Source: Prosthecobacter sp.
Lineage (GTDB): Bacteria; Verrucomicrobiota; Verrucomicrobiia; Verrucomicrobiales; Verrucomicrobiaceae
Length of the DNA: 35,784 bases
Direction: 5' to 3'
Assembly (NCBI GenBank): GCA_030827515.1
Contig: JAUREI010000016.1
Span: 1-35,784 of the forward strand
Position numbers and translations under genes: made by a program. The first letter of the stretch is position 1, and every line of letters begins with the position of its first letter. A model generated the notes under the pieces. The model did no database searches. It saw only the letters and a program-made list of their open reading frames with translations, and was not told where the DNA came from. This document shows, in pieces, positions 10,677 to 28,072 of this stretch.

Positions 10677-13600
10677 TCAGGGTTGCTGGACCTCCAGGTT
10701 GACCGCATTGCTCTCCTCGCCGCCAGGCGTCAGGGCGTTGCTGACCCGCACCGTGTAACTGGCGGCGTCGCCCGCCACCACCGGATCGAACACCAGCTTG
10801 AAGCTGGTCGCGCCGTCGATCTCGACACCGTCCTTGAACCACTGATAGAACAACGGGCTGGTGCCCTGGGCCGTGGCGGTGATCTCAACCCGGGCGCCCA
10901 GCGGCACGGGTTGCTCAGCCGGCAGCGTGATGGCGGCCGTCACGTCGCTGACCGGCAGGCCGACGGCCAGTTCCACGGGGTCGCTGAGCACCCCCGCTGG
11001 AGTCTCGGCGTTGAAGACACGCACCGTGTAATCGCCGGTGTCGGATTCCAGGACCGAGATCAGGGTGTACGTGACACTGTTGGCGCCGGCGATGATGACA
11101 TTGTCCTTGTACCACTGGTAGGTGAAGGGGCCGAGGCCGGCATTGCTGACCGTGAAGTCGACCCGCTGCCCGACGGCGACCGCACCCACACCCGGGGTGC
11201 GTTCGACCGAGACGTTGGCGACACGGGCGTCCAATGCGAGCGGCACCTCGTTGCTCAGCACCCCCGGATTCGTCAGGGCATTGGCCACACGCACGGTGTA
11301 GTCCCCTTCCGCCCCAGCCCCGGCAAACGGGATGGTGTAGGTGGCCTGGGTGGCATCGGGGATTTCCTCGCCATCCTTGAACCACTGGTAGGTGAAAGGA
11401 CCCGTGCCGTCGGCGGCGACCTGGAAGGTCACGCTGCTGCCGATGGGTACCTGTGCGTCGGGCGGCGTTCGGGAGGCGATCGGATTGCGCACCATGGAGG
11501 CAACCTCAAGGACCACCTCGTTACTGATCACTCCGGAGGGACTCAGCAGACTGGTCACCCTCACGGTGTAAGTGCCGGCATGGAACGATTCCACGCTGCC
11601 AATCAGATAGGTGCTCGAGGTGGCCCCCTCGATGTCCTCGCCATTGCGGCGCCACTGGTAGGAGAGATCACCGCTGCCGTTCGCCGCCGCGCTGAAGGTG
11701 ACGGACGAGCCCTCGTCAATGAGGGCGTCGGCGGGGCTGCGACTGATGATGACCGAGGAGACGGGATCGTTGACGGTGAGGACGGCGACGGCACTGACGG
11801 CACGACCATAAAGGGTGCTGATGACGACGTCATAATCCCCCTCATCACCCTCGTCGATCGCGGTGATCTGGAACGTCGAAGCCGTGGCGCCATTGATGCT
11901 GGTTCCGTTGAAACGCCACTGATAGCTGAGGGCACCGAGCGCCTGGGCGGTGACACTGAAGGTGTGGGTTGCGCCCGGATCCACCGTGGCCGCCGAGGGT
12001 TGACTGAGGATCTGGATCGGCGCTGAACTGAGACGGACGTCGCCGGCCAGGATCGGCGAGGTCGTCGCCGGCAGGCCGTCCGAGGGCTTCTGCGCGAGCA
12101 GAAAGCTGCCGACTCCCTTGCCGGTGTCGCCGGGGACATCGACGGTGACAATGTCCCCGAACTCATCACGCCTCTGGGTCTGGGTGTCCGGAATGCGGGG
12201 AATAACCAAGCCGTAAAACGAGGCCTTGCGCCTGGGTTTCAGCTCGGGGTCATCGTCGACGCTGAAACTTCCGCTGACGAGTCCGGTGGTGCGAATGACG
12301 GCCAGGTTGACGGAACCGGGATTGCCGGCCGAAGGAATGACGGGAACGTTGCTGCCGTTGAGAGTCAGCAGAGGAACGTCTGGATCCGTCTGGGCCTGCT
12401 CGATGCCTCCCTCGCTGAAGGCCAGGCTGGCGTTGTTGTCGATGCCCTGCGGCAGCCCAAGCACGGGCAGGCCGGAGGCCGGCGGGTTGTAGGAAATGCC
12501 AAGGGTGTCCAGAACCAGCGGCCCGAAACCATCCCGATAGGCGCGTTCCTTGCTTGAAGTCTGGGGATCGCGGCTCCAGTTGAGACTGCCGGAGACCCGC
12601 AGCCACAGTTCATTGACTCCGGACGGGGCCAGGTTGACGCCAAGAATGTTCTGGACGCCCCCCACGGCTCCGGTGCCCTTGTAAAGGGACTGGTAAACCA
12701 CGAACTGGAACTGACTGCCCAAATGGGAGCCGCAGGTGAAACTGGCGCCATCGCCCATGCGGCCGGAACAGGTGATGACACCGTTGTTGGTGAGCACAAC
12801 GCGCAGAAAACCGGTGCCCTGCGGAATGTCGTCATCCCCCACATCATCCTCGTCGAGATGCAGGCCGATGTTGAAGGTCTGCTCGAGGCCGAGCGGATTC
12901 CAAGTGGTGTTGTAAACACGGCGATAACCGTAGATCTCGGCCGTGTTGGCACCGTCGGTGACCAGTCCGCTGATGTCGCCGCTGTCGGAGAATCCCTGCA
13001 GGGCGACCGTTTGAAACAGCAGAGTCAGGGTGGACTGCCCTCGGCGAACGATGACCGCCTGCCCGCTGGCAAAATTGCTGCCGGGTGTCTGGCGCATCGT
13101 GCCGGTGAAGCGGTAGGAGTTCTTGCCCTCGACCAGTTTGCCGCTGACCTGACCGCCGTCGGTGACGGTCATGTCAAAGCGGCCTCCCTTGTTACCGTTG
13201 AGCACCGCAGAGGGCGCAATCTGGCCGAGAAACGAGCCGACGGCCGGCTCCGGCATTGGCAGCACGGTCAACGTGCCGGTCACTGGCAGACTGGTGCCGG
13301 CGGCATTCCTGCCAGTCACCGTGAGCGTGTAGAACCCGGGGCGGGTCGGACGGCCCTGGATGCGGCCGGTGGCCGGGTCCATGCGCAGCCCCGCCGGCAA
13401 CCCCTTGATGCTGAACGTCATCACCGAGGTGTTGTTGTCGCCACCGAAGGGCAGGGTGTGATCGTAGTCGAGTCCGATGTAGGCGGTGGCCGGCGTGAAG
13501 TTCGACAGGACCGGACGAATCGCGAGATGAACACGCCAGGCGCCGGTTTCAGTTTCAAGATCGCTGCCGGGGCTGCTCACACGGCAGGTGTAATCCCCCA

Positions 13601-20532: not shown

Positions 20533-21828
20533 TCAGACCGCGCGCTGCAACTTGTCGTCGATGCGCGCCACCAGGGTGTCGAGCACCTCGCTGTTGCCGA
20601 AGCGCTCAATAACGTCGGCCAGGAAACCCTCAACGATGAGCTTGCGCGCCTGGCCGTCGGAAATGCCGCGCGCCTTGAGGTAAAAGAGTTCCTCGTCGGC
20701 AATCGGGCCGCTGGTGCTGCCGTGGCTGCACTTGACCTGATCGGCGTTGATCTCCAATCCCGGCAGGGAGTTGGCCTCGGCCTCCTCACTGTTGAGCAGG
20801 TTGCGGCAGGTCTGGTAGGCGTCGGTGTAATGCGCGCCCTCGTCGACGATGATGAGGCCGCTGAACACCGTGCGCGCCTGGCCGTAGAGGGCGTTTTTGT
20901 ACAGCAGGTCGCTGGTGGCATGCGGCGCCTTGTGACGCTGCAGCGTGCGCTGGTCCACGACCTGCTCACCGACCGGCATCGAGACGCTCAGCATGTCGCT
21001 GCGCGCCCCCTCGCCGACGAGGTCGCTGACGCTTTCGCTGCGACTGAAGGCGGCGCCGAGCTGGACCTGGAAGCTTTTCACCGCCGCATCGCGACCGGCA
21101 CGGATGCCGGAGAGATGCAGGGCCTGAGCGTCATCGGCGAGTTCCTGGCAGGCGGCATAGGTGATCTTGCTGCCCGGCCCGCCAACCAGATCGGCGATGG
21201 CAATGCTGAGACCGCCCTCACCTTCCAGACTGCGGTAGTGGTCGACGACACTAATCTGGGCATTGTCCTCGGCAACCACCAGCGTGTGCGGGAAGATCGC
21301 CGCGTGGTCGCCGACGACCCAGTGGAAGATTTCGACGGGCTTGTCGATGACTGCGTTCTTCGGCACCAGGATGACCGTGCCGGCCTTGACGTGGGCCAGG
21401 TGCAGGGCGGCAAACTTGGCCGACCCGAGCGGCAGGTCGGCCTTCATGAAATGGGCCTCCAGGGCCGGGCCATGGGTTTTCAGGGCCTCGGCGAAACTCA
21501 AGCAAACCACCCCGACGGGAAGGCCGGTGCTGTCGGACTCGACAAGCGTGTCGTTGACGAAGACAAAACGCGCGGCGCGCTCCTTCAGGCCTTCCGTGAG
21601 GGCAAGCGCGGCCTTGGACTGTTCGAACGTCGGCGACTGCGCAGGCGCATGGTCGGCGAGCTCAATCTTCTTGGCGCTCGAGTAGCGCCAGTTTTCATCC
21701 TTGAGGCCGGGAAGCGGCAGGGACTGGAATTCGCTCCAGGCGGCTGCGGCACGCTTCAGGAACCATTCGGGGGCAGCGTCAGAAGGGCGGAGGGGGGCGA
21801 TGGTGAGGAGACCGGAGGCGGGAGGCAT
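20533..21828 (-). CDS. sufD: Fe-S cluster assembly protein SufD
   Basis: Scaffold partner of SufB in the SufBC2D complex, where clusters are built in the cytoplasm. The protein is 431 residues (family about 420). An N-terminal helical region contains FQSLPLPGLKDENWRYSS (about 34-51), then a right-handed parallel beta-helix core, and a C-terminal domain with VKCSHGSTSGPIADEELFYL (about 357-376), including the conserved His, and ARGISDGQARKLIVEGFLAD. It is the last gene of the suf run, separated from sufB by a small unknown gene and a nucleotidyltransferase, which is not the usual sufB-sufC-sufD adjacency. The start has a long pyrimidine-rich leader. No sufS or sufU follows. Confidence 0.95.
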   Translation of the reverse strand: MPPASGLLTIAPLRPSDAAPEWFLKRAAAAWSEFQSLPLPGLKDENWRYSSAKKIELADHAPAQSPTFEQSKAALALTEGLKERAARFVFVNDTLVESDSTGLPVGVVCLSFAEALKTHGPALEAHFMKADLPLGSAKFAALHLAHVKAGTVILVPKNAVIDKPVEIFHWVVGDHAAIFPHTLVVAEDNAQISVVDHYRSLEGEGGLSIAIADLVGGPGSKITYAACQELADDAQALHLSGIRAGRDAAVKSFQVQLGAAFSRSESVSDLVGEGARSDMLSVSMPVGEQVVDQRTLQRHKAPHATSDLLYKNALYGQARTVFSGLIIVDEGAHYTDAYQTCRNLLNSEEAEANSLPGLEINADQVKCSHGSTSGPIADEELFYLKARGISDGQARKLIVEGFLADVIERFGNSEVLDTLVARIDDKLQRAV

Positions 21829-21855: not shown

Positions 21856-22314
21856 TCAATCGGCGTCCTGACGAGCAACCTCGGTCAAGGCCTCGACGTC
21901 GAGCAAGTCCTGGGGGCGAGCTGCGGCTTGTTTGGCTTGGATGAGGTGCTTCAACGAGACGAAAGGCACGGAAACACCACCCACATCAGAGATGACGCGA
22001 GCTTGATGCGCTGCGGCAAAATCCAAACCCGGAACAGACGTGAGAAAGTCCACGCGACAGGGAGGCAGGCCGATTTGGAACATCGTCCGTTCCGTCGAAA
22101 AGTGCTCCAGTGTCATTCCCTCCACCCAGCCACCAAAACGCAGCAGCGCTTCGCGCACTCGCACGGCGTTCTCTGCGCTGGGCAGAATCCAGAGGTCGAT
22201 GTCCTTCGTGTAGCGTGGCTCGGCATAAAAAATGACCGCGTAACCACCGACGACGAGATACTCAACCTGGCAGTCGTTCAAAATGGTGAGCAGTTCTTTG
22301 AAGTCGGAGTTCAT
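21856..22314 (-). CDS. MNT-type nucleotidyltransferase (DUF6036/AbiEii-like)
   Basis: A 152-residue protein of the minimal nucleotidyltransferase superfamily. The catalytic core is visible: VEYLVVGGYAVIFYAEPRYT (about 16-35), with the GG signature, followed by KDIDLWI holding the metal-binding DxD (36-42). This is the fold of nucleotidyltransferase antitoxins and AMP-adding enzymes. The ATG at 22314 gives the normal short N-terminus; the frame is open further upstream to 22464 but that part overlaps the preceding gene. It overlaps the small unknown gene by 53 bases and lies 27 bases before sufD. A toxin-antitoxin-like or regulatory role is plausible by family, not shown. Confidence 0.82.
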   Translation of the reverse strand: MNSDFKELLTILNDCQVEYLVVGGYAVIFYAEPRYTKDIDLWILPSAENAVRVREALLRFGGWVEGMTLEHFSTERTMFQIGLPPCRVDFLTSVPGLDFAAAHQARVISDVGGVSVPFVSLKHLIQAKQAAARPQDLLDVEALTEVARQDAD

Positions 22315-22522
22315 CAGCGGGACGGCCTTTGAGAAGCCAGGCGGTTTCGACGAGTTCCCAAGCAGCCGTGAAACGCGCGCAGGCAGGCTGGGTTTGCCAG
22401 AAGGCGAGATCAAACTCACGTCCGGCCTGTTCCAACGGCACCGCACGCCACATGACGTTGCCACGTGCAGACTGACCGGTTTGGATCGCAGTGGAAGGTG
22501 ACATGATCTGCAAAAGCTGCAT
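22262..22522 (-). CDS. Small unknown protein paired with the nucleotidyltransferase
   Basis: An 86-residue protein without recognised domain. It is mostly helical in appearance, with FDLAFWQTQPACARFTAAWE and RPADELRLQRTAHHF. Its start overlaps the sufB stop as TGATG, a typical translational coupling arrangement; an in-frame ATG at 22504 (protein starting MSPSTAIQTGQ) is an equally possible start. Its 3' end overlaps the nucleotidyltransferase by 53 bases in another frame. The fixed pairing suggests a two-gene unit, such as the partner of an MNT protein. The family is not recognised, and the function remains open. Confidence 0.65.
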   Translation of the reverse strand: MQLLQIMSPSTAIQTGQSARGNVMWRAVPLEQAGREFDLAFWQTQPACARFTAAWELVETAWLLKGRPADELRLQRTAHHFERLPG

Positions 22523-23961
22523 CAGCCAACGCTGCCTTCCATTTCGAGATCGATGAGGCGCTTGAGCTCGACGCTGTATTCCATCGGGAACTCTTTGACG
22601 AGGTCGTTGATGAAGCCGTTGACGCTGAGGCTCATCGCCTCGGCCTCGCTGAGGCCGCGCTGCATCAGATAAAAGATCTGATCGGCGCTGACCTGGCTGA
22701 CGCTGGCCTCGTGCTGGGTGGCGTGCTGGTTGCCGCGCACACTGATCGCTGGGTAGGTGTCAGTGCGGCTCTTCGGATTGATCAGCAGGGCGTCGCACTC
22801 GGTGTTGTTTTTGCATCCCTTGAGATGCTTGGGGATGTGGACCAGGCCGCGGTAGGTGGAGCGCCCCTCGCCGATGGAGATCGACTTGGAGATGACGTTG
22901 CTGGTCGTCTCGTCGGCGGCATGCACCATCTTGGCGCCGGTGTCCTGGTGCTGGCCGCTGTTGGCGAGGGCGATGCTGATGACCTCGCCGCGCGCGCGCC
23001 GGCCCTTCATGATGACGCCGGGATACTTCATCGTCAGGCGGCTGCCAATGTTGCAGTCGATCCAGCGCACCTCGGCATCCTCGTGGGCGATGCCGCGCTT
23101 GGTGACAAGGTTGAAGACGTTGCTGCTCCAGTTCTGGACAGTGACATACTGAATCTTCGCGCCCTTGAGGGCGACCAGTTCAACGACGGCGCTGTGCAGG
23201 GTGGCGGTCTCGAACTTCGGGGCGGTGCAGCCCTCCATGTACATGACCTCGGCGCCCTCGTCGGCGATGATGAGGGTGCGCTCGAACTGGCCGAACTGCT
23301 CGCTATTGATGCGGAAGTAGGCCTGCAGCGGGTGCTTCACCTTCACGCCCGGCGGCACGTAGATGAAGGAGCCGCCGGAGAAGACGGCGCTGTTCAGCGC
23401 GGAGAACTTGTTGTCACCGGTGGGGATGACCTTGCCGAACCACTTCCTGAAGATCTCCGGGTGCTTGTGCAGGCCCTCGGTGCTGTTGACGAAGATGACG
23501 CCCTGCTCCTCGACGGCGGCCTTGATGTTCGAGTAGGCGGCCTCGCTGTCGTATTGCGCCTCGACGCCGGCGAGGAACTTTCGCTCCTGCTCGGGGATGC
23601 CGAGCCGGTCAAAGGTCTTCTTCACATCCTCGGGCACCTCGTCCCAGGAGCGCTTCGGCTTCTGGCCGTCGCTCAGGTAGTAGCGGAACTCGTCAAAGTG
23701 AATGTTCTCCAGATCCTTGGTGGCCCAATGCGTGGGCATGGGCTTGTCGAGGAAGACCTTGAGGGCCTTCTTGCGGAACTCGCGGATCCAGTCGGGATCA
23801 CCCTTGACGTCGCAGATGTAATCGATGGTTTTTTCCGTGATGCCGAAGCCGGAATCGAACTTGTTGCGTTCCGGGAAGGTGAAATCACCGACGCTGTCGA
23901 CCGTGATGCCGGCAAGGTCGGGGGCTTCGGGACGATCAAGGGTTTCTGGAGCGGAGACCAT
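22522..23961 (-). CDS. sufB: Fe-S cluster assembly protein SufB
   Basis: Main scaffold of the SUF system, on which Fe-S clusters are assembled with SufC and SufD in the cytoplasm. The 479-residue length is typical (E. coli 495). Family motifs include the N-terminal [17 protein letters not shown] (about 54-70), [40 protein letters not shown] and, near the C-terminus, [19 protein letters not shown] with a conserved Cys. It is 33 bases after sufC. Its stop codon overlaps the start of the small unknown gene (TGATG), so the unknown pair is translated from the same message. Confidence 0.97.
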
Positions 23962-23994: not shown

Positions 23995-24750
23995 TCACGC
24001 CGCGGCGGCGACTTCCTCCTTGACCCAGTCGTATCCCTTGGCCTCGAGCTCGAGAGCGAGCTCCTTGCCGCCGGTCTTGACGATCTGGCCGTCCATGAGG
24101 ACGTGAACGATGTCGGGCTGAATGTAATTGAGCAGGCGCTGGTAATGGGTGATGAGCAAAAAGCCGCGGTCCCCGCTGCGCATGGCGTTGACGCCGCGGG
24201 CAACGATTTTCAGGGCGTCGATGTCGAGGCCGGAGTCGGTCTCGTCGAGGATGGCATACTTCGGTTCCAGCATCATGAGCTGGAGGATCTCGTTGCGCTT
24301 TTTCTCACCGCCGGAGAACCCCTCGTTGACGCTGCGCCCGGTGAAGCTGCGGTCCATTTCAAGGGCGTCCATGCGGGCATACAGCCGCTTGTAGAACTGC
24401 ACGGCGTCGATGTCCTCACCGGCCGGCAGCCGCGCCTTGAGGGCGGCACGCAGGAAGTTGGCGTTGCTGACGCCGGGAATCTCATGCGGGTACTGAAAGG
24501 CAAGGAAGAGGCCGGCACGGCTTCGCGCATCGACCTCCATGTCGAGAATGTTCTGGCCGTCGAGCAGGACCTGGCCACCGGTGACTTCATAATCCTCATG
24601 ACCGCACAGCACCTTGCTGAGCGTGCTCTTGCCGGAACCGTTCGGGCCCATGATCGCGTGGACTTCACCCGGGTTGATCGTGAGGTTCAGGCCTTTGAGG
24701 ATTTCGCGGCCGGGAATCTGGGCTTGGAGGTTTTGGATTTCGAGGGACAT
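23995..24750 (-). CDS. sufC: Fe-S cluster assembly ATPase SufC
   Basis: ABC-type ATPase of the SufBC2D complex; its ATP hydrolysis reshapes SufB-SufD during cluster assembly. The 251 residues match the family. Walker A is GPNGSGKST (35-43), the Q-loop lies in [10 protein letters not shown], the signature is FSGGEKKR (145-152), Walker B is [10 protein letters not shown] (167-176), and the H-loop is in [11 protein letters not shown]. The SUF-specific form of the signature followed by KRNEILQ separates it from transporter ATPases. It lies between the regulator (39-base gap) and sufB (33-base gap). Confidence 0.97.
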
Positions 24751-24789: not shown

Positions 24790-25242
24790 TCAGCGTGCCG
24801 CACAGGCGCTGCAGGTGCCGTGGATGGCGAGTTCCATGCGGCTGACCCGGGTGCCGGCCGGCAGGTTCCAGAACTTGGCGGGATCAAAATCGGCGGCAGG
24901 ATGCGCGTCGATGACCTTGCCGCAGGTCTCGCAGTGAAAATGAACGTGCTCGTGCAGATTGGCGCAGTAGCGCGATTGGCCACGCTCCAGATGCACCTGC
25001 TTGATCAGGCCTGCGCCGGTGAGGTGTTCCAGGCAATTGTACACCGTCGCCAGCGAGATTCCCGGGGAACGGTCCTTGACCCGGGTGAACAGGTCCGTGG
25101 CCGTGGGATGGTCGGTGGATGCCTGCAGCACCTCAAAGACTTCACGGCGGTGCGGCGTCAGGCGCACATCGGCCCCGAGTACGGCCATCCGGCACTCCAG
25201 GCCGGTGGGCTTGGCAGGTTGACGGTTGGGGGTGGGCGGCAT
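24790..25242 (-). CDS. Fur-superfamily regulator, PerR-like
   Basis: A metal-dependent DNA-binding repressor of the Fur superfamily, 150 residues from 25242; an in-frame ATG at 25188 has a GGAG seven bases upstream and would give 132 residues. The winged helix covers about 20-85 (GISLATVYNCLEHL recognition helix). The dimerisation domain has HEHVHFHCETCG (97-108) and a second CxxC near the C-terminus (CSAC, 144-147), giving the structural zinc site. His45 in DHPTA and Asp112 in KVID sit where B. subtilis PerR has His37 and Asp104, the residues that are oxidised in peroxide sensing; Fur proteins usually have Glu at the second place. It heads the suf operon and probably controls both itself and suf through the palindrome at 25252. 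Confidence 0.9.
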   Translation of the reverse strand: MPPTPNRQPAKPTGLECRMAVLGADVRLTPHRREVFEVLQASTDHPTATDLFTRVKDRSPGISLATVYNCLEHLTGAGLIKQVHLERGQSRYCANLHEHVHFHCETCGKVIDAHPAADFDPAKFWNLPAGTRVSRMELAIHGTCSACAAR

Positions 25243-25251
25243 GGCTTTTTA

Positions 25252-25272
25252 GAATTAGAATGATTCTAATTC
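25252..25272. promoter_or_regulatory. Perfect 21-bp palindrome, probable Fur/PerR-type operator
   Basis: Arms GAATTAGAAT and ATTCTAATTC flank one central G with no mismatch. The core TTAGAAT-N-ATTCTAA has the 7-1-7 form of Fur-superfamily boxes and differs from the B. subtilis PerR box (TTATAAT-N-ATTATAA) by one base per arm. It also contains the TTAGAA-N3-TTCTAA core of alphaproteobacterial Irr boxes. It lies 10 bases upstream of the regulator's first ATG. A possible -10 (TAGAAT, 25268-25263) with -35 TTAGTT (25290-25285), 16 bases apart, overlaps it, so binding would block transcription of the regulator-suf operon. AT-rich in a GC-rich setting. Confidence 0.8.
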
Positions 25273-25336
25273 AGAAATCGCACCAACTAACGGGATTGCA
25301 ACCTTGGATTGGCCGGTTCCGATGAAAAACGCCTGC

Positions 25337-26227
25337 TCAGGGAGCCTCGGACGCCGGCAGCAACTGCAGGACGACCAACTGCTGCCGAATGATTGCGGCG
25401 ATGCGCCCGAGAAAGGCTGCATGCGACTCGACCTCCTCCCGGCGAACTTCCGGAATCCCCTGCCACCAATCCTCCGCCTGAGCCTGCCCGAGGATCTCCT
25501 CGTAGCGGCGCAGGCAGCTGCCGAGTTGCGCCCAGCGTTTCAGGATGGCCGCGTCGTCGCGGCGCACCTGCTTCGGGTCGAGCAGGTCGTTCAGCAGGTT
25601 GATGGCGGCCCCCGCACCGGTGAGTGGAGCCGCGAAGCCCGCCATGGGCATGTCGGCCATGGCGATTGCCTGCTCGGCGAGGCGAACCACCTCGGGCTTC
25701 AGTTCCGGACGTTGCAGGGCCCGCGCGGCAAGCTGGAAGTGCAGGATTTCGTAGAGCGATGTATCGCTGCGATCAAGCGCGTAGGCCGACCTCAGCCTCC
25801 AGAAGGCCGAGGAATCCAGGTAGCGCTGGTGGGCTGCAGTCATGGGAAAAGGGCTGTTGCGCCGGGTCCGCTCCTTTTCCAGACGGGCCAGCGCGTGCAC
25901 TCGCGCCTCCAGCCAGGTCACTTCGGGGACCGGTGCCGCCGCGGCGGTGGTCGCCGCGGCCCGGCGCGCAAACACACCCACCGCAGGAGGCGTCGGAGGT
26001 GTGGCAGCCGTTGCAGCTGGATGCTGGGCCTGGGCGGCACTTTCGCCGCCATGCCAGTAGCTGTGCAGGGAGTCGCGCACGAGTCGCGCGGCCAGACTCC
26101 CATAGGGGCTCCCGGGAAAACCGAGAAGTCCGCAGGAGCCGGCGTCGCGCCTCGCCGCGAGCTGATCGCCCGCGATCCACAGCAGCCCGGCAACGGACAG
26201 GGTCAGGAGCGGGTGCGAAAAAGACAT
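25337..26227 (-). CDS. Unknown exported or anchored protein of the ABC module
   Basis: A 296-residue protein with an N-terminal hydrophobic segment (about 5-22, SHPLLTLSVAGLLWIAG) that is a signal peptide or anchor, then an Ala/Pro-rich linker (about 66-100) and a helical C-terminal part (about 105-290). No domain is recognised and no catalytic motif stands out. It overlaps the permease gene by 25 bases and is the last gene of the ATPase-permease-unknown set, so it is probably an accessory or substrate-contact component of that transporter. This is inference from gene order only. The 94 bases between it and the regulator gene hold the palindrome at 25252-25272 and no terminator that I trust. 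Confidence 0.72.
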   Translation of the reverse strand: MSFSHPLLTLSVAGLLWIAGDQLAARRDAGSCGLLGFPGSPYGSLAARLVRDSLHSYWHGGESAAQAQHPAATAATPPTPPAVGVFARRAAATTAAAAPVPEVTWLEARVHALARLEKERTRRNSPFPMTAAHQRYLDSSAFWRLRSAYALDRSDTSLYEILHFQLAARALQRPELKPEVVRLAEQAIAMADMPMAGFAAPLTGAGAAINLLNDLLDPKQVRRDDAAILKRWAQLGSCLRRYEEILGQAQAEDWWQGIPEVRREEVESHAAFLGRIAAIIRQQLVVLQLLPASEAP

Positions 26228-26973
26228 AGGCCGGTCAGCGAGAGGGCGAGCCCCTGCAGGCCGAGCACACCGGCGGAGGCAAGAAAATCGGCGGCAGGCA
26301 GCGGCCCCATCTTGAACACCAGCCGCGGGGTCAGGTCGGCGAGATGATAATGGGGCACAGCCAGCCAGAGCGACTGCAGGAGTTTCGAGGAGGAGCCGCC
26401 AAGCAGGGGCGCGAGCCAGACGGCGCCAAAGAGGCCGGCGAGAAGCAGGCCGGTTGGCACGAGGAAGGCGATGACCTCAACCGTGCGGGTGCCGAGAGCC
26501 GTCGCCAGCAGGACGAGGGGCACCGCACAGAGCGTGTACAAGGCGGCATACTGGCCGACAAGCTGCAGCCAAAGCTCCACCTCCCCGGCTCGCCCAGGCA
26601 GGCACCATGTGACGCTGAGCAGCACTGCAATCAGGGCGAGGGCCAGAAGCCAGACGACCACGGCACCGCCCAGTTGCAACCAGAGGCGGCAGCGACTGGC
26701 GCCGATGGCATGCTCATGCTCCAGCATGCCCTCCGTGCGCATCCGATGCCCCAGAGCCGCCGCCTGAAAGGGCAGCCAGGTGAACAGGGCCAGCCAGGCG
26801 TAGGCCCAGATGGCCTGCGCACGCGCCGGCTGGAGGATTTGGGGATTCTCCTCCCAGGGCGTGACGAGCGGCGCCAGCCAGGCGAAAACCAAGGCGCCGC
26901 CAAGGAGCAGCCAGCAACTGCTGCGACTCATCAGGCCGGCGAGGCCCAGGCGAAAGAGGGGGAAATGCTTCAT
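26203..26973 (-). CDS. ABC-type membrane permease subunit
   Basis: A 256-residue integral membrane protein with about six hydrophobic segments (for example LLLGGALVFAWLAPLV near 22-37, VVWLLALALIAVLLSV, LVPTGLLLAGLFGAVWLAPL). The order directly after an ABC ATPase and the topology fit an ABC-2-type permease, although sequence similarity to named families is not evident by eye. The ATG at 26973 overlaps the ATPase stop as ATGA, giving tight coupling; the longer open frame to 27135 lies inside the ATPase gene and was rejected. The 3' end overlaps the next unknown gene by 25 bases. The substrate is unknown. Confidence 0.8.
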   Translation of the reverse strand: MKHFPLFRLGLAGLMSRSSCWLLLGGALVFAWLAPLVTPWEENPQILQPARAQAIWAYAWLALFTWLPFQAAALGHRMRTEGMLEHEHAIGASRCRLWLQLGGAVVVWLLALALIAVLLSVTWCLPGRAGEVELWLQLVGQYAALYTLCAVPLVLLATALGTRTVEVIAFLVPTGLLLAGLFGAVWLAPLLGGSSSKLLQSLWLAVPHYHLADLTPRLVFKMGPLPAADFLASAGVLGLQGLALSLTGLCLFRTRS

Positions 26974-27650
26974 GCCTGAAGGGACTGGTAGGTGGCCAGC
27001 CACGATCCGCCCCGGCACTCGCGGGAGTGGAGCAGTTTGCCTCCGTGGATGGAAAGCAGGGAGTCGGCGGTGCGCACGGACTCCAGTTCGTGCAGGATGA
27101 CCAGCCGAACCATGCTCGCCGCAGAACTCGCCCAAAGATCGGCGACCTGCGCGCGTGTTTCAACGTCGAGGCCGGTGAGCGGCTCGTCCATGAGCAGCAC
27201 TCCGGGCCTGGTGAAGACAGCCTTCACCTCGGCAAGAATGAGCAGAACCTTTTGACGGTTGCCACGGGACAGCCTTCCAATCTGCTGGTTCAGATCCAGG
27301 CGCAGGGTTTGAGCCAGGCTCCTGGCCAGATCCAGTGCCTCACCCTGAAACCAGGAGCGAAAGAAGGTAAGCGGTTTCAATTCCGGGTCCGCGCGCAGTT
27401 CATCAGCCACGTAGTGAACACCGGACGGCGGAACGGCCCCTCCTTCGAGAAAGGGCAGCAAGCCGGCCAGCGAGCGCAACAGGGTTGTCTTGCCGGAGCC
27501 ATTGGGGGCCACAAAGAGATGCAGGCCGGGTCCGATGTCGATGGCTTCGGGGGCGCTCGCCAGGCAGCGGTCGCGCCTTTGCCATGGCAATCCCTCACGG
27601 TAGCCGAAACGGGTGCCGGCGGGGATGGTCAAGCGAGGAGCATCAGGCAT
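26970..27650 (-). CDS. ABC transporter ATP-binding protein
   Basis: A 226-residue ABC ATPase, powering the permease encoded next to it. The ATG at 27650 (protein starting MPDAPRLTIP) was preferred to the upstream in-frame start, which overlaps the pseudopilin gene. Walker A is APNGSGKTT (48-56), the signature LSRGNRQK (127-134) replaces the usual LSGGQ with LSRGN, Walker B is VLLMDEP (151-157), the D-loop is GLD, and the H-loop His is in ILHELES (about 187). The LSRGNRQK form is seen in ABC-2 type exporters. Its start is 14 bases after the pseudopilin stop, so it follows the secretion operon without a break. Confidence 0.92.
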   Translation of the reverse strand: MPDAPRLTIPAGTRFGYREGLPWQRRDRCLASAPEAIDIGPGLHLFVAPNGSGKTTLLRSLAGLLPFLEGGAVPPSGVHYVADELRADPELKPLTFFRSWFQGEALDLARSLAQTLRLDLNQQIGRLSRGNRQKVLLILAEVKAVFTRPGVLLMDEPLTGLDVETRAQVADLWASSAASMVRLVILHELESVRTADSLLSIHGGKLLHSRECRGGSWLATYQSLQA

Positions 27651-27664
27651 CGGCGATAAAAGAC

Positions 27665-28072
27665 TCAATTGCCCGTGTCCCATAGGCCGTCATCGGCCTT
27701 GCCGGAAGGATCGTAAATGGCGCCATTGGCATAAAGTTTCGGCGGCATGACAGTGTGATCAAGGGTGAGCGCCTCGTTTTCGAGGCCTGTGAAAACCGGC
27801 ATGGCCGACCAACCCTCGGGCAGATAGGCCTGCAGCTGAACGGTGCTGACCAAGGCGATGTTGGCCGTCGGATGATCGGCCATATAGCCGCGCTGGGCGG
27901 AGTAAACCGCCCGGAGCGAGAGGGCCGCGTCCTTGCCGCGCTGCCAGTTGCGCACGGATGTGATTGTGAGGCCGGCAAGCGTGCCGAGGGCGAGCAGCAG
28001 GGCGATGACCAGACTGATTTCGATCAGGCTGAAACCGCGGGCGGCGGTCGCAGGGTGTGGCAGGACTTTCAT
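27665..28072 (-). CDS. Type IV pilin-like pseudopilin
   Basis: A 135-residue prepilin of the type II secretion/type IV pilus class. After a short basic leader (MKVLPHPATAARG) comes the prepilin peptidase site G13-F14 and the hydrophobic helix FSLIEISLVIALLLALGTLAGL with Glu at mature position 5, the hallmark of this class. The globular part is short (about 95 residues). It would be cleaved and N-methylated and polymerise into a pseudopilus. Its ATG overlaps the stop of the upstream unknown gene (ATGA). No prepilin peptidase gene is in this window. It could be a GspG- or GspH-like minor or major pseudopilin; the sequence does not decide. Confidence 0.88.
   Translation of the reverse strand: MKVLPHPATAARGFSLIEISLVIALLLALGTLAGLTITSVRNWQRGKDAALSLRAVYSAQRGYMADHPTANIALVSTVQLQAYLPEGWSAMPVFTGLENEALTLDHTVMPPKLYANGAIYDPSGKADDGLWDTGN

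Follow-up and report, generated by a model that had tools for sequence, protein, structure and literature searches.

A Putative Dedicated Fur-Family Regulator of the suf Operon in Prosthecobacter Combines PerR-Type and Zur-Type Metal-Site Residues

Introduction

The assembly of iron–sulfur (Fe–S) clusters is usually switched by regulators that are themselves Fe–S proteins and belong to families other than Fur, such as IscR and SufR, the latter a DeoR/ArsR-like winged-helix protein. SufR is described as an Fe–S cluster repressor that is encoded by the first gene of the suf operon and acts as its Fe–S switch, with three cysteine residues named for the cluster (PMC6034842). Within the Fur family, the regulatory metal of PerR is bound by His37, Asp85, His91, His93, and Asp104, while Fur carries Glu at the Asp104 position and Zur carries Cys instead of Asp85 and has no equivalent of His37 (PMC4866751), with Cys84 of Bacillus subtilis Zur located in the regulatory site (PMC4866751, PMC5007448). 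A connection between PerR and suf has also been described in Streptococcus mutans, where PerR represses sufCDSUB, which its authors call the first direct PerR–suf link (PMC11631912), such that a link of this type is not new in kind.

Here, we analyze a stretch of 35,784 bases from a Prosthecobacter contig (hereafter, the window), for which the original prediction had proposed a PerR-like regulator, preceded by a perfect 21-bp palindrome, at the head of a suf operon. Our literature search found no report of this regulator, nor of any suf regulator from Verrucomicrobia.

Results and Discussion

Organization of the suf Locus

The proposed suf operon is borne out, with sufC, sufB, and sufD all scoring above the cut-offs of their TIGR models. 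It lies on the minus strand in the order regulator–sufC–sufB–(nucleotidyltransferase-like)–sufD, and opens with the gene of a 150-residue protein (positions 24790–25242) that belongs to the Fur superfamily, matching the Pfam FUR family (PF01475) at 90.3 bits against a cut-off of 23.1. This gene is followed by those of the Fe–S assembly ATPase SufC (23995–24750; TIGR01978, 357.8 bits, cut-off 212.8) and of SufB (22522–23961; TIGR01980, 614.5 bits, cut-off 346.4), by an open reading frame (ORF) resembling nucleotidyltransferases (21856–22464; DUF6036/DUF2204, borderline at the cut-offs), and by sufD (20533–21828; TIGR01981, 232.5 bits, cut-off 222), with intergenic gaps of, in order, 39, 33, 57, and 27 nt.

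The spacing of these genes varies within the genus, as loci L050–L052 have a sufB–sufD gap of about 120–510 nt where the window has the nucleotidyltransferase-like insertion, and sufC and sufB are roughly 600 nt apart in some of loci L048–L053, compared to 33 nt in the window. Upstream of the regulator and its operator, on the same strand, positions 25337–27683 hold an ORF with no family match, followed by an ABC-2 permease-like and an ABC ATPase ORF.

Metal-Site Residues and Phylogeny of the Regulator

By sequence, the closest solved structure is that of B. subtilis PerR (2fe3, 6.4e-21; 6.8e-27 in a profile search), and the protein is predicted to adopt a winged-helix plus dimerization-domain fold (mean pLDDT of the model, 85.9). 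Superposition of this predicted model on full-length Fur-family structures gave Z scores of up to 14.5, with Fur, Mur, Zur, and PerR about equal, and its agreement with PerR 3f8n (Z of 13.7, rmsd of 2.6, 133 residues, 35% identity) is level with that obtained for other Fur-family entries.

Alignment with 2fe3 places His45 (codon at 25108–25110; all codons on the minus strand) at His37 and Asp112 (24907–24909) at Asp104 of B. subtilis PerR, in agreement with the original assignment of both residues to the PerR sensing positions; Asp112 in particular does not fall outside the sensing site. His99 and His101, in the segment His99-Val-His101 (24940–24948), take the positions of His91 and His93. What had been missed is the replacement of the remaining ligand, Asp85, by Cys93 (24964–24966), which aligns with Cys84 of Zur. 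Across 48 suf-linked orthologues (22 from the genus, 12 from the order, and 14 from the class, collected by plain protein and profile searches), His45, Cys93, His101, and Asp112 do not vary, and 46 sequences have His99, with the two exceptions (L201 and L210) showing a one-residue insertion by eye. Among the seven cysteine positions counted, Cys93 is the sole one kept in all 48. The two CxxC zinc pairs that had been noted are indeed present in the window protein (Cys104/107 and Cys144/147), and such structural pairs are incomplete in at least five of the 12 order loci and in most of the 14 class loci. We note that the 14 class loci, together with six weaker matches, were taken from 202 genomes with a match, and that one same-genus regulator (L030; G021:C582:7885-8261), which is split over two frames by a frameshift or an assembly error while its operator is intact, was excluded from the 48.

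The Cys93 position is occupied by Asp in 6/6 relatives with no suf linkage (one alone of which is from the same class), such that the change from Asp to Cys coincides with linkage to suf in this comparison of 48 with six sequences. In a tree of 44 rows, the deep branches of which are weak, all 22 suf-linked rows form one group (92/84; one change, 100% of 200 bootstrap trees), which is separate from the PerR proteins of Bacilli (95/79) and from Irr (100/100). Judged from the alignment, the regulatory site would correspond to a Zur-type ligand in a PerR-type frame, and the protein appears, on its sequence, to resemble both peroxide and zinc sensors while mixing their metal-binding parts.

Palindrome and Operator within the Genus

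The predicted perfect palindrome is real: GAATTAGAATGATTCTAATTC spans positions 25252–25272, with arms of 10 bp and zero mismatches, and is the sole match to itself at up to three mismatches in the whole window. No other odd palindrome among the 35,784 bases is as long, and none of this kind was found in 100 dinucleotide shuffles. The runner-up, ACCAGCTTGAAGCTGGT (10792–10808), has arms of 8 bp.

All ten arm pairs are, however, present in the window only among the 22 same-genus loci, and the gene-distal arm varies at its three outer bases, from which it follows that the perfection of the full 21-mer is partly luck. We thus rejected the 21-bp palindrome as the functional unit; the part that is kept is a 15-bp core with the adjoining hexamer toward the gene. 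Specifically, TTAGAATCATTCYAATTC lies close upstream of the regulator gene in 22/22 loci, and the conserved operator, TTAGAATCATTCTAATTCTAA as read on the gene strand (25249–25269, minus strand), consists of a 7-1-7 box (25255–25269) and one gene-side hexamer, with all columns invariant save one C/T site in 18 same-genus sequences registered on the box. The expectation that related genomes would share the 21-mer therefore held for the box core, which is found upstream of the orthologues, and failed for the full sequence. In the window, both operator and palindrome lie directly upstream of the regulator ATG. On the other strand, the operator reads TTAGAAT-TAGAAT-G-ATTCTAA, a layout that we take to be that of the classical Fur box, although built from another hexamer, and the 7-1-7 box presumably differs from that of Bacillus PerR by one base per arm.

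A genome scan found the operator in 29 of 30 same-genus genomes, at one locus each, compared to three chance matches to the reversed pattern across all 30; six of these genomes (G320–G325) were counted for the operator by sequence scan alone. The sole genome with no operator, which is 52% complete, likewise yielded no regulator. Several same-genus operators (L066, L069, L080, L011, L012, and L022) contain an extra ATTCTA unit, often alongside a C in the first unit (ATTCCA), as though the additional hexamer made up for that change.

Conservation of Regulator, Operator, and sufCB across Verrucomicrobiia

The pairing of a Fur-family regulator at the head of the suf operon with an operator of its own is conserved far beyond close relatives, in line with the original proposal. 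Outside the genus but within the order, the regulator is followed by sufC–sufB in 12/12 loci, and 10 of these carry a site that scores 12/15 or better; the two weak sites (9 and 10 of 15) belong to f2/g2, presumably the Akkermansia-like group. The Akkermansia site is weak (GGAATTGTTCTTG), with GGAATTGTTCTTGCAAAA kept throughout 11 aligned loci. Fourteen further class loci (13 from other orders and one from the same family but a different genus) all have sufC and sufB downstream, and all carry a site matching TTRGAATNATTCTWR at 13/15 or better. Extending the comparison to 80 named loci, which were found via a pattern including R[YF]C and so carry no weight for the conservation of the cysteine, we observed sufC downstream in 77, with less than 200 nt of DNA left in the remaining three, and, in 80/80, a match of at least 12/15 to TTAGAATNATTCTTG in the 300 bp preceding the gene, compared to 1.15 expected from shuffles. 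The operator consensus outside Prosthecobacter is TTAGAATAATTCTTGAT.

What most strongly ties the operator to the regulator is their joint absence. Eleven order or class genomes were listed with no regulator match, and all eight of these that we examined keep sufC–sufB with no regulator adjoining; their highest-scoring site over 1200 bp, or over as much DNA as was available (just 190 nt upstream of sufC in L224), reaches 9–11 of 15, which is at chance level. The comparative sequence data thus give good support to a suf regulator that is dedicated and autoregulated and has an operator of its own.

Position of the Operator Relative to the Promoter

Less can be said for the proposal that the palindrome overlaps a plausible −10 element: TAGAAT resembles TATAAT, yet a consensus scan gave no sigma-70-type promoter, and no −35 element at constant spacing from the candidate −10 was found in the relatives. 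A −10 inside the window's operator is therefore unsupported, and the Prosthecobacter promoter was not identified by either the consensus scan or the spacing comparison in relatives. Outside the genus, an operator TTGNNN is followed 16 nt on by TANNNT in 18/56 loci, compared to 0–4 loci for other spacers, which suggests that the operator there probably covers the −35 element.

Regulon and Related Regulators

Allowing up to two mismatches, TTAGAATNATTCTAA occurs at one place in the Prosthecobacter genome, at suf (the reversed control also gave one), and a wide PerR-like regulon was not found, this being the single operator locus of the genome. As sufS lies on a different contig and no second operator was seen within two mismatches, part of the pathway seems to lie outside the switch. 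The same genome contains two other FUR matches, C129 and C218, which by eye are Fur-like (with Glu in place of Asp104) and Zur-like, respectively, as well as two Rrf2-family matches above cut-off.

We also scanned 76 genomes of the class for TTAGAATNATTCTTGAT at up to one mismatch, a strictness at which most genomes have no site and weaker operators are missed. Matches were found in 12/76 genomes, four of them just upstream of the regulator; those away from it comprise six copies in the Akkermansia group and one each in G312 and G364, of which G312 also has a control match. The six Akkermansia-group genomes (L180–L185; 1450–1520 in L180) have TTTAGAATAAATCTTGATT between the stop codon of a lipA-like (lipoyl synthase) gene and an ORF resembling a CxxCH-rich cytochrome c peroxidase, with both names assigned by eye, the ORFs read in L180, and the sequence read in L180, L181, and L183. 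It is possible that TTTAGAATAAATCTTGATT is a second target, or merely a shared −35 element (TTGATT) plus the stop codon.

Alternative Readings of the Regulatory Signal

PerR regulons include peroxide genes, and the single operator locus per genome in the genus argues against a strict PerR, that is, a Fe2+-bound repressor that is inactivated by H2O2 through metal-catalyzed oxidation of histidine, inducing Fe–S repair. Such a reading would draw on the closest solved-structure match being B. subtilis PerR, on the retained equivalents of His37, His91, His93, and Asp104, on the O-donor at the Asp104 position, described as the residue that chiefly governs whether H2O2 can reach the iron site (PMC4866751), and on the repression of sufCDSUB by PerR in S. 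mutans (PMC11631912). The PerR label is not supported, however, since four of the five ligands are present and the Asp85 equivalent is Cys in 48/48, the branch lies outside that of Bacilli PerR (the suf regulators group apart at 92/84), and the NCBIfam PerR models that match score far below their cut-offs (82.8, 69.7, 51.7, and 42.4 bits against 180, 200, 250, and 200); the relatives that do keep Asp are, in 6/6 cases, not linked to suf. We consider strict PerR function unlikely on these grounds. The box core, TTAGAAT-N-ATTCTAA, resembles the Irr box, and three Irr sequences likewise have no CxxC pairs, which would speak for an Irr-type regulator responding to iron or heme status. However, Irr forms a separate branch (100/100, three rows), and its residue at the Cys93 position is Asp (FDTN in each of the three), such that we rejected Irr membership on both tree and ligands; the two NCBIfam Irr models give 64.8 and 65 bits against cut-offs of 170 and 150, and we regard this type of regulator as most improbable.

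Position 81 of the regulator is Lys, Arg, or Asn where Mycobacterium tuberculosis FurB has the Asp of "GLVD", which we take to be a metal ligand, and both this and the presence of a separate Zur-like paralogue (C218, by eye) count against a Zur-type zinc sensor that would tie Fe–S assembly to zinc (mis)metallation. While Cys93 does occupy the position of the regulatory-site Cys84 in B. subtilis Zur (PMC4866751, PMC5007448), the His37 equivalent that Zur does not have (PMC4866751) is kept here as His45 in 48/48, and zinc sensing seems to us quite improbable. Alternatively, the protein could sense the product of the pathway or its sulfur, with DNA binding altered by an Fe–S cluster or a persulfide formed on Cys93, either alone or together with the CxxC cysteines. 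The regulator shares both slot and target with SufR (PMC6034842), E. coli Fur has been reported with a [2Fe-2S] cluster (PMC11001641), a cyanobacterial PerR is reported to sense polysulfide via cysteine persulfidation (PMC9952342), and, of the cysteine positions counted, it is Cys93 that is universal. One invariant cysteine per monomer is nevertheless few for a cluster, and many orthologues do not have the CxxC pairs on which the persulfide case relies; we consider this reading unlikely.

Proposed Mechanism

Our preferred reading, which we consider reasonably probable, is that the protein is a dedicated, autoregulated, metal-dependent Fur-family repressor of the suf operon, probably using Fe2+, and an analogue of SufR. 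The dimer would carry its regulatory metal, most likely Fe2+, on His45, Cys93, His99, His101, and Asp112, and in this metal form would bind the 7-1-7 box, possibly with two dimers that together span the additional hexamer, thus blocking transcription of the regulator, sufC, sufB, and sufD. Iron shortage, or an oxidized or emptied metal site, would then lead to release and to induction of Fe–S assembly. We infer repression, rather than activation, from the position of the operator, and metal dependence, Fe2+, and the signal itself are likewise inferred, with the choice of Fe2+ the weakest step. A thiolate ligand would separate the regulator from both Fur, with its Glu at the Asp104 position, and PerR, with its Asp85, and because the metal site is mixed, its specificity is a testable question.

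Conclusions and Comparison with Known Systems

More tentatively, and with some doubt that all parts will hold, the regulator could represent a distinct Fur subfamily, found in Verrucomicrobiia only in our sample, in which a Zur-type Cys in a PerR-type site creates a sulfur-ligated His-Cys-His-His-Asp sensor of iron, Fe–S, or sulfur (persulfide) status, and which independently took over the role of SufR and IscR as a dedicated feedback switch for Fe–S assembly. A Fur-family protein in that slot throughout the class, including the relatives of Akkermansia, would be an independent solution to the control of Fe–S assembly. The hybrid site would directly test how a single ligand, Asp or Cys, changes the role of a peroxide sensor, and, with a regulon that is apparently one operon, the logic from ligand to output could be cleanly studied.

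Compared to known systems, the regulator is like SufR of cyanobacteria and of M. tuberculosis (Rv1460) in that its gene is the first of the suf operon and in being a presumed autorepressor of Fe–S assembly, and unlike it in being a Fur-family protein. It is like PerR of B. subtilis (2fe3/3f8n) in its predicted fold, in the residues at the His37, His91, His93, and Asp104 positions, in the two CxxC pairs of the window protein, and in a palindromic 7-1-7 box, and unlike it in the Cys at the Asp85 position, in its place outside the PerR branch, and in its apparently single-operon regulon. With Zur (B. subtilis, and FurB of M. tuberculosis) it shares the Cys at the Zur Cys84 position, while differing in the PerR-type His45 and Asp112, in having no acidic residue at position 81, and in an operator that lies at suf. 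Finally, S. mutans PerR at sufCDSUB offers a parallel as an iron-dependent Fur-family repressor at a suf promoter; there, the regulator is global and the contacted nucleotides are imprecisely defined (PMC11631912), whereas here the regulator is apparently dedicated and linked, and its candidate operator is sharply conserved.
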